The position numbers and the translations under genes were made by a program. From IMG/VR virus record IMGVR_UViG_3300024289_000023, positions 35,110 to 99,109 of that record: a DNA stretch of 64,000 nt; one strand, 5' to 3'. Numbering within the stretch: position 1 is the first letter of the stretch; every line of letters starts with the position of its first letter. This DNA is from a virus. The notes under the pieces are model-generated. The model was not told where the DNA came from, searched no databases, and saw only the letters and a list, made by a program, of their open reading frames with translations. Positions 15,703 to 36,095 of this stretch are shown piece after piece.

Positions 15703-15731
15703 ATTATAGACAAAAAAAGAGGTGGAGTCAA
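15703..15731 (-). promoter_or_regulatory. Sigma70-type promoter built into a terminator hairpin
   Basis: Minus strand: TTGACT at 15731-15726, spacer of exactly 17 nt, TATAAT at 15708-15703. The -35 hexamer covers the loop and closing base of the terminator hairpin 15718-15741, and the terminator U-run is the spacer. It should drive the 59-residue gene and thyX. Confidence 0.75.
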
Positions 15732-15741
15732 GTCCACCTCT
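15711..15741 (-). terminator. Intrinsic terminator after the small-gene operon
   Basis: Stem AGAGGTGGA / TCCACCTCT (9 bp) with a 6-nt loop, followed on the minus strand by seven T residues. It lies 5 nt beyond the stop of the 32-residue gene at 15746 and overlaps the promoter of the next unit. Confidence 0.85.
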
Positions 15742-15745
15742 TAAG

Positions 15746-15844
15746 TCATTTTGCTGCTACCAGAGTAGCAAGAGATGCTTTTTGACGCCTCTCTTCTTTT
15801 TGTTTTTGTTCTTTAATGAGTTGAAGAAAGTTTAGTTTTTTCAT
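15746..15844 (-). CDS. Small basic peptide
   Basis: 32 residues, MKKLNFLQLIKEQKQKEERR then a hydrophobic end. Its ATG overlaps the stop of the DUF4278-like gene (TGATG), with a strong AAGGAGGGG ribosome site inside the end of that gene. It is followed directly by a terminator, so the two genes form a small bicistronic unit behind the riboswitch candidate. Confidence 0.55.
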   Translation of the reverse strand: MKKLNFLQLIKEQKQKEERRQKASLATLVAAK

Positions 15845-15981
15845 CACTTATGCCCCTCCTTTACAAACTTAACACCACGATAGTTTTCGTTATACTGTTG
15901 GGGTTGTTGCATCATTTGCTGTTGATACTCAAGACGCTTTTGCTTGTCGTATTCAACACCGCGATAAACTACTTTTGACAT
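15844..15981 (-). CDS. DUF4278-like small protein, PirA-type candidate, behind a glutamine riboswitch candidate
   Basis: 45 residues. The opening MSKVVYRGVEYDKQKRL and the end NYRGVKFVKEGHK each carry a Y-R-G-V motif, the mark of DUF4278, a domain found in small cyanobacterial regulators such as PirA. The middle is Gln/Met-rich. The leader contains conserved blocks of the Downstream-peptide/glnA glutamine riboswitch class (16013-16070). A good SD (AAGGAG) lies 10 nt before the ATG. Known: in cyanobacteria such RNAs control small proteins of nitrogen metabolism. Inferred: the phage tunes host nitrogen flow with this peptide. Confidence 0.7.
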   Translation of the reverse strand: MSKVVYRGVEYDKQKRLEYQQQMMQQPQQYNENYRGVKFVKEGHK

Positions 15982-16012
15982 TAGGTTTTCTCCTTAGTTT
16001 TTAGGTTAAAGA

Positions 16013-16070
16013 GCGTTCCTTCAGTCGGCGTTTCCGTTCGCTATTTGCGAATAGCGAATGAACGAATTGC
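16013..16070 (-). ncRNA. Candidate glutamine riboswitch (Downstream-peptide / glnA class)
   Basis: Read on the minus strand: CGTTCA (16064-16059), a perfect 9-bp hairpin TTCGCTATT / AATAGCGAA with 4-nt loop, then CGGAA, GCCGAC and GAAGGAACGC (16022-16013). CGTTC pairs with GAACG to close a three-way junction. These blocks match, from memory, the conserved CGUUCA, CGGAA and GAAGGAACGC of the glnA/Downstream-peptide RNAs found in cyanobacteria and their phages. The small DUF4278-like gene starts 32 nt further on. Confidence 0.65.
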
Positions 16071-16102
16071 GTTCCGCGTCGGCTTACTTCCGTCCTATTA
16101 GG
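16069..16102 (-). ncRNA. Partial upstream copy of the riboswitch motif
   Basis: Just 5' of the main element the minus strand reads CCTAATAGG, ACGGAAGTAAG, CCGACGC and GGAACGC. ACGGAAGTA and GGAACGC are again core blocks of the glnA-type RNA, but no CGTTCA partner is found on the 5' side. It may be a degenerate tandem copy or an alternative strand for switching. Confidence 0.35.
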
Positions 16103-16104
16103 TT

Positions 16105-16308
16105 TTAGCACTTTACTATGAAATCCTTTCGGAGTTCTAATAACAATCGGTCCTCTATCTTTTGAATTACTACATCGTCGTTTTTAACGATGTCCATTAG
16201 TTCCATCGCGGTGTCGCAAGAAACTGCAACCTGTTGGATGCTAGATGCTTGTGGCGCTGAAACGAAGAGGAAAGGAACCCATGCTAAAAGCAAGAGTGCT
16301 TTAGTCAT
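16105..16308 (-). CDS. Small exported protein
   Basis: 67 residues with a clear signal peptide (TKALLLLAWVPFLFVSAPQA) and two Cys in the mature part. The mature part is short and acidic/basic mixed (MELMDIVKNDDVVIQK). It lies between speD and the riboswitch-controlled unit. No function is known to me. Confidence 0.6.
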   Translation of the reverse strand: MTKALLLLAWVPFLFVSAPQASSIQQVAVSCDTAMELMDIVKNDDVVIQKIEDRLLLELRKDFIVKC

Positions 16309-16386
16309 AGGATGAACGGTAGAGGATTATTATACCTCTATTCAACTTATATAGGAAGTTTTGTGTGTATTTCCTGATACAGTTTT

Positions 16387-34802: not shown

Positions 34803-36095
<1,293 letters not shown>

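Follow-up and report, generated by a model that had tools for sequence, protein, structure and literature searches.

The stretch analyzed here, referred to as the window, comprises 64,000 nucleotides of the 99-kb virus record IMGVR_UViG_3300024289_000023 (positions 35,110 to 99,109). Its minus strand carries, near the 5′ end of a phage operon, a tandem of putative glutamine-riboswitch aptamers followed by a gene for a small DUF4278-related peptide; all coordinates are window positions. The feature is bounded by speD (16713-16387) and a terminator-like hairpin. The source phage is taken for a T4-like cyanophage because of speD, PhoH-like and thymidylate-synthase-like open reading frames (ORFs; the latter two called by reading the ORF list), tRNAs, wcaG and PhotoRC-II RNAs, and its blastn relatives.

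The 45-residue peptide contains the Y-R-G motif twice and matches phrog_5049 with an E-value of 6.6e-9. An initial annotation of this DNA had linked it to DUF4278, and that link holds: the window's peptide matches PF14105 with E = 0.0024 and 18.6 bits, below the gathering score of 25.3, and relatives match as well. Eleven of the 12 phage members of an alignment that includes it (alignment A1) match DUF4278 at E ≤ 0.05, the best at 3.1e-7, and RefSeq names two of the relatives, from S-SSM5 and P-TIM40, DUF4278 proteins. The additional label "PirA-type" (PirA being the PII-interacting regulator) is without support, as judged from the literature: the main text of the PirA paper, PMC8092223, does not mention DUF4278 once. 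In print, the DUF4278 link is with the N-terminal part of IF17, according to the available text of PMC6316151. No solved structure matched the peptide family at E ≤ 1.

Upstream of this gene, the leader elements listed in the initial annotation are all present in the order given, namely CGTTCA (16064-16059), a perfect 9-bp hairpin (TTCGCTATT-CGCA-AATAGCGAA), CGGAA, GCCGAC and GAAGGAACGC. The Rfam covariance model for type 1 glutamine riboswitches, RF01739, aligns here over model positions 1-53 of 53, with CGUUCA, the P2 stem, CGGAA and GAAGGAACG in place, P1 closed and no broken pair marked. The E-value of 8.8e-6 refers to 601 scanned bases, and the score of 34.7 bits misses the gathering cut-off of 35 by 0.3 bit, which is why the element is not listed in an Rfam scan at gathering scores. 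Thus, of the two models proposed at the outset, RF01739 does match, yet below its cut-off, whereas RF01704 lists neither of the window's aptamers up to E = 10 and was rejected for them. Judged from this alignment, the element, hereafter aptamer 2, is a glutamine-riboswitch aptamer. Its P2 palindrome, TTCGCTATT...AATAGCGAA (16058-16037), recurs almost unchanged in the second position, or slot, of the tandems of S-PM2 and S-CREM1 and in the first slot of DSL-LC03 (loci L005, L006 and L001), as if it had moved as a unit.

Just upstream, a second and supposedly partial set of elements had been noted, GGACGGAAGTAAGCCGACGCGGAACGC (16095-16069). The set is there, but it is not partial: its 5′ half, CGTTCATCCTAT, lies at 16318-16307, upstream of a 67-residue ORF, and the interval first annotated covers the feature only in part and ought to extend about 216 bases further upstream. 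The tandem suspected earlier thus exists as two aptamers in a row, the first split and the second compact. CGTTCATCCT-ATG opens the ORF at 16308, and AATAGGACGGAAGTAAGCCGACGCGGAACG comes after its stop codon. The halves are 220 nucleotides apart and are predicted, by complementarity, to form P1 (CGTTC at 16318-16314 with GAACG at 16074-16070) and a P2 of six pairs. A parser for such copies recognized two in the window, one of them split and the other compact, compared with 0.00 split and 0.01 compact copies per sequence in 100 draws of 64-kb first-order random sequence; it places the 3′ half of the compact copy six bases off, the Rfam register being the correct one.

RF01739 finds only the 3′ half of aptamer 1, at chance level (10.5 bits, E = 1.78), as would be seen if the first set were a decayed aptamer that lost its 5′ half when a gene was inserted. 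The 5′ half is, however, present directly before the ATG of the gene, and 133 distinct copies share this layout and have arms that covary. Since both halves are present, decay was rejected, and we consider it very improbable. On these sequence grounds, the upstream set is no fragment but belongs, as the 3′ half, to a first aptamer with a gene inside it. The elements are collected in Table 1.

Table 1. Features of the tandem-aptamer region and its borders, in window positions
Feature	Position	Strand	Basis
Hairpin AGAGG-TATAATAAT-CCTCT, immediately 5′ of the first aptamer half	16321..16339	-	Sequence; commonest hairpins of 187 distinct leaders
CGTTCA: P1 5′ strand (CGTTC) of aptamer 1 and next base	16313..16318	-	Sequence; parser
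P2 5′ arm of aptamer 1 (UCCUAU), includes A and U of the enclosed gene's AUG	16307..16312	-	Sequence; 6-pair stem
Enclosed 67-residue gene in predicted P2 loop of aptamer 1	16105..16308	-	ORF list; relatives in same place
P2 3′ arm of aptamer 1 (AUAGGA)	16093..16098	-	Sequence; parser; covariation in other phages
3′ half of aptamer 1, CGGAAGTAAGCCGACGCGGAACG	16070..16092	-	Sequence; compact first-slot copies elsewhere match RF01739/RF01704
Aptamer 2 (putative), compact, 9-bp P2 hairpin	16010..16066	-	RF01739 34.7 bits, E 8.8e-6
Possible expression platform: hairpin CUCUUUA...UAAGGAG, would hide the peptide gene's Shine-Dalgarno (15995-15990)	15990..16013	-	Leader folds
45-residue Y-R-G peptide, DUF4278-related, phrog_5049	15844..15981	-	ORF list; profile matches
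33-residue ORF overlapping the stop of the peptide gene	15746..15847	-	ORF list
Terminator-like hairpin with T run, could end the transcript	15717..15742	-	Terminator scan

Split and compact copies in related phages

The counts that follow describe the matches listed, not natural frequencies. Blastn to phage records (10 records) led to S-PM2, P-TIM68 and S-CREM1, in which two complete compact aptamers stand in tandem 5′ of the same peptide family. Viral contigs were also scanned for the junction of two aptamers (at least 120 stretches), and in many of these stretches a complete small ORF fills the space between two aptamer halves. This pattern set holds 104 distinct aptamer chains 5′ of a Y-R-G gene, 72 of them with at least one split copy, and 17 loci without a chain, contig ends and chance matches among them. 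A second set, found by way of the peptide and sharing some contigs with the first, consists of the best 80 of 304 relatives, those nearest the window's peptide; it yielded 68 distinct chains, 22 with a split copy, and 5 loci without a chain.

Twenty named cyanophages, picked as blastn or tblastn matches and thus not a random sample, all have tandem aptamers, and 17 have at least one split copy. Two split copies occur in P-SSM4, P-RSM4 and P-HM1 and none in S-CREM1, S-PM2 and P-TIM68; in two of the 20, S-CAM8 and S-ShM2, the search pattern recognized no Y-R-G gene downstream. In P-SSM4, a manA RNA (L210:130-315; 184.1 bits) lies upstream of the double-split array.

A further scan used the second-slot 3′ half without demanding a tandem and gave at least 120 matches, including 64 new loci. 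Among the matches listed, these loci comprise 48 split and 11 compact copies, with a further 5 lying at contig edges; of the 59 parsed, 58 stand in tandem, and a Y-R-G gene starts within 110 nucleotides in 63 of the 64. The pattern can favor split copies, because its fixed letters also encode the usual C-terminus, D-A-K-A-D. Altogether, 336 distinct copies were parsed among the matches listed (loci L001-L224), 203 compact and 133 split, the latter drawn from viral contigs, named phages and the window. One scan of genome contigs returned two contigs (L223 and L224), filed under metagenome-assembled genomes of Rhodospirillaceae and Dehalococcoidia; because both bear the cyanophage array, they are probably wrongly binned phage sequence.

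The two slots differ in their 3′ halves, which end in CNCGGAACG in 40 of 43 first-slot split copies and in GAAGGAACG or AAAGGAACG in 89 of 90 second-slot ones. In a scan of 11 named-phage loci, two copies passed the RF01739 cut-off, one from P-TIM68 (second slot, 35.4) and one from P-SSM2 (first slot, 35.1). Nine compact first-slot copies from named phages were compared with both models at E ≤ 0.5: RF01739 matched seven of them and RF01704 six, with five recognized by both and that of S-CREM1 by neither; the RF01704 scores (22.0-29.4) are all below the gathering score of 33. Because compact first-slot copies match one model, the other or both, the tandem may be of mixed riboswitch type.

The enclosed genes and the pairing across them

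The enclosed genes, of 49-69 codons, start with ATG in all 133 copies, 3-7 nucleotides after CGTTCA in 132. In 108 the ORF extends into the 3′ half; in the remaining 25, the window's among them, it stops 2-14 nucleotides before. By their substitution pattern, the enclosed ORFs are under purifying, protein-level selection: outside the aptamer, the median ratio of nonsynonymous to synonymous rates (dN/dS) is 0.20 for 76 first-slot pairs and 0.19 for 205 second-slot pairs (equal length, at least 55% identity, unsaturated). A Shine-Dalgarno-like motif precedes 124 of 131 Y-R-G genes; among the enclosed genes, it occurs before none of the 43 in the first slot and 10 of the 90 in the second. Since most enclosed genes lack this motif, their start region consists for the most part of the 5′ half of the aptamer itself.

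Each of the 133 enclosed ORFs has exactly two cysteines, and a hydrophobic N-terminus is seen by eye in many of the proteins, including the window's; they are perhaps exported, disulfide-closed microproteins. Structure models gave a predicted local distance difference test (pLDDT) of 63 and a predicted template-modeling score (pTM) of 0.34 for the window's protein, and 77 and 0.52 for the second-slot family, with helices in a hairpin-like order. These models suggest two helices but are too weak to name a function. Pfam returned nothing convincing for the enclosed proteins, and PHROGs returned phrog_504 and phrog_6471, both of unknown function, with no match for the window's 67-residue protein; among solved structures, the second-slot family had two weak matches only (E = 0.15 and 0.23). 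In P-SSM2 (L209, NC_006883.2 245213-245362), the enclosed second-slot gene is unannotated in the RefSeq record, and GU071092.1 has it as a predicted protein.

The split copies contain 45 distinct pairs of six-base P2 arms. Complementarity at the first four positions is found in 39 of these, against a mean of 15.0 and a maximum of 27 in 5000 re-dealings of the arms, and at five positions in 36 (re-dealt mean 8.3, maximum 19). The fourth pair alone is A-U in 13, C-G in 13, U-A in 9, U-G in 3 and G-C in 1, with 6 mismatches. Of 90 distinct rows, 78 are paired at 5/5, and the proportion of paired cells is 96.7%; when the arms are slid by 1-3 bases, it falls to 34-55% and no row reaches 5/5. Two ORFs that are 95% identical outside their last eight residues (L081 and L033) differ by a compensated pair, UCCAA/UUGGA against UCCGA/UCGGA. 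Given 20 of the 55 marine second-slot copies and no hint, RNAalifold closed P1 and four P2 pairs across the gene. We conclude, from these comparisons among sequences, that compensatory changes preserve the P2 pairing across the gene from phage to phage.

The coding sequence goes along with this pairing. At the P2 3′ arm of second-slot ORFs, the encoded residue varies with the 5′ arm: UCUAU goes with Ile (26), Val (3), Leu (2) and Gln (2); UCCCA, UCUCA and UCCUA with Trp in 36 of 36; UCCUU with Lys (6), Glu (3) and Arg (2); UCCUC with Glu (3); and UCCCU with Arg (2), Trp (1) and Gly (1). Codon identity can therefore go with pairing to a 5′ leader. On a quick tree of 89 second-slot proteins, built from short cores, at least 21 changes fall in the 5′ arm and at least 18 in the 3′ arm. 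P2 probability, computed only for copies with a P2 of at least five pairs, is higher in the real ORFs than under synonymous-codon permutation (mean 0.63 versus 0.39; the median is exceeded in 80 of 88 representatives), in line with an earlier run on 60 of 120 such copies; given the control described below, this result is not counted in favor of the design.

The same data bear on whether the aptamer halves are mainly repeated cassette borders, at which small genes are swapped by homologous recombination while the split copies have little regulatory role. Promoter-stem-loop cassettes of T4-type phages offer an analogy, and both the strongly conserved borders around varied small genes and the mosaics of compact, split and double-split arrays among related phages are what such swapping would produce. 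Yet borders that serve recombination only need not keep P2 complementary, and compensatory changes call for a folded RNA. In addition, first-slot and second-slot copies mostly have different 3′ halves, and their scanned ORFs (8 proteins) fall in different PHROGs, so that gene swapping is not free. We regard this explanation as improbable.

A candidate reciprocal switch

Our preferred interpretation, to which we assign a probability of roughly 0.6, is that two tandem glutamine aptamers lie near the 5′ end of the operon, that the first carries a gene as its P2 loop, and that glutamine gates this gene. Glutamine binding, we infer, occludes the start of the enclosed gene and favors the downstream peptide. 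At high glutamine, the split aptamer would fold, with the 5′ strands of P1 and P2 paired and P2 taking in or abutting the start codon, and the enclosed gene would not be read. At low glutamine, ribosomes would enter the gene, and a ribosome reaching its stop codon, in or next to the 3′ half, would cover part or all of that half and hold the aptamer open. Folding and reading would thus be mutually exclusive, with glutamine tipping the balance.

The downstream peptide would probably be regulated the opposite way; i.e., high glutamine would mean peptide on and enclosed protein off. This direction is suggested because both glutamine riboswitch types are reported as activating in cyanobacteria, according to the available text of PMC6316151. 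Such ligand-opposed control of two genes would let one metabolite set two small phage proteins reciprocally. For the peptide gene, a possible expression platform sits directly after P1 of aptamer 2 (Table 1), and this hairpin is present in leaders that begin GGAACGC, like the window's. Four loci (L033, L054, L057 and L215) have an extra element after P1, between the second aptamer and the peptide gene (CGGATCAC, a hairpin and GTTAAAGG), for which Rfam has no match at gathering scores.

Several observations weigh against gating by a split aptamer. Six of the 45 arm pairs (10 copies) are unpaired at the first four positions, one of which, UCUAUG with CGCAAA, looks like a wrong parser register. 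P2 would span the gene with few base pairs, most often 5-7. The window's near relatives have its own arms (UCCUAU/AUAGGA, 13 copies), and the covariation therefore stems from other phages; the invariance of P1 says nothing, because the search pattern and the parser required it. In what we call the freshwater group, which includes the lake and reservoir phages DSL-LC02, DSL-LC03 and S-SRM01, RNAalifold on 26 of 27 copies (L002 left out; 5′ arm invariant) kept P1 and did not keep the expected P2 register. A tree-based test for paired changes had too few supported branches, yielding on average at best 3.2 pairs that change the same way and 0.0 that change the other way (median p = 0.25). Among the leaders shown (75 of 133), there is no common hairpin that hides the Shine-Dalgarno of the peptide gene outside those like the window's. 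Lastly, the start region of the enclosed gene stays free until transcription has passed the 3′ half, which could allow ribosomes to read the gene beforehand.

A related point concerns the interior of the enclosed ORFs. Peptide genes, which enclose nothing, rank the same in folding against synonymous permutation (0.901 and 0.900), and the window's genes rank at 0.77 and 0.68. Because this control folds as strongly, the idea that the ORF interior is selected for drawing the two halves close to each other was rejected as evidence of design, which is a further point to be set against the proposed gating.

It is also possible, though on balance unlikely, that the enclosed gene is tolerated cargo; that is, the switch folds and controls only the downstream peptide, while ribosomes read the enclosed gene on any free RNA, irrespective of glutamine. 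Peripheral loops of group I introns tolerate endonuclease genes in a comparable manner. Compact and split copies share the same slots in related phages, and the switch can thus do without an enclosed gene; the pairing kept across the gene is what cargo would require too. Against this, in 132 of 133 copies the P2 5′ arm overlaps or immediately precedes the start codon, few of the enclosed genes have a Shine-Dalgarno, and the stop codon falls inside the 3′ half in 108 of 133, a coupling closer than cargo needs.

We consider the chances about even for the wider proposition that gating by split aptamers makes up a reciprocal two-gene switch across T4-like cyanophages, in which an aptamer core would be assembled from the two flanks of a gene, binding and translation would exclude one another, and the tandem partner would act oppositely on the next gene. 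Such switches would have been overlooked because covariance models do not span a gene.

Known riboswitches and the surrounding region

The type 1 glutamine riboswitch (glnA RNA, RF01739; e.g., the gifB leader of Synechocystis) shares with the window's aptamers the core sequence, P1, P2 and their order, as well as a DUF4278-type gene downstream. In the model, P2 is a short hairpin, whereas here a 67-residue gene would occupy the P2 loop, with its start codon in P2 and its stop next to the 3′ half. Tandem copies of glnA RNAs have been noted before (available text of PMC2864571). The type 2 riboswitch (Downstream-peptide RNA, RF01704, Glutamine-II) of marine picocyanobacteria, e.g., that of PMM1846, likewise lies 5′ of small DUF4278 proteins, but the window's first copy differs from it in being split by a gene. 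In the text available for PMC6316151, type 2 riboswitches activate on glutamine, and the association of glutamine riboswitches with DUF4278 is already described.

The presence of glnA elements in cyanophages is known as well (PMC9964418; PMC9602691, both in part), and a glutamine riboswitch is reported in a marine methylophage (PMC9004378, excerpt). For S-CREM1, Table 4 of PMC9964418 gives RF01739 at 164330-164232, in the same place and before the same peptide family; it is listed there as one 99-nucleotide element, which we read as two tandem compact aptamers, none split. The metE B12 riboswitch aptamer of Mycobacterium tuberculosis contains a translated upstream ORF (+123 to +170) that affects the switch (PMC11260477, as far as available). 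That ORF is short, whereas the genes described here have 49-69 conserved codons under protein-level selection and a closing stem that covaries across them. Our literature search, which reached few subscription papers and no supplements, turned up no earlier account of a gene splitting a glutamine aptamer.

Searches for riboswitches presuppose that the aptamer is compact and lies 5′ of the gene under its control, and whole arrangements can be missed when an aptamer straddles a gene. The proposed switch would give phages a testable route for reading host nitrogen status and setting two small proteins, one of them DUF4278-related, as are proteins that cyanobacteria themselves place behind glutamine riboswitches. 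It is relevant to the adjustment of nitrogen metabolism by infecting cyanophages and offers a functional hypothesis for phrog_504, phrog_6471 and their freshwater counterparts.

Upstream of the tandem, the commonest leaders have a hairpin ending 1-3 nucleotides 5′ of the first CGTTCA. Its arms vary among phages while the pairing is kept (AGAGG/CCTCT, AGGTC/GACCT, TGTGTTA/TAACACA), some loops contain TATAAT-like letters, and over 187 leaders the mean best stem is 6.3, against 5.2 when shuffled. A promoter scan listed no promoter-like site immediately 5′ of the first aptamer half. The terminator scan of the region gave three terminator-like sites where 0.9 are expected. Elsewhere in the window, the wcaG RNA (55448-55351, minus strand; 102.9 bits) and the PhotoRC-II RNA (23759-23666, minus strand; 84.1 bits) both score well over their gathering scores.
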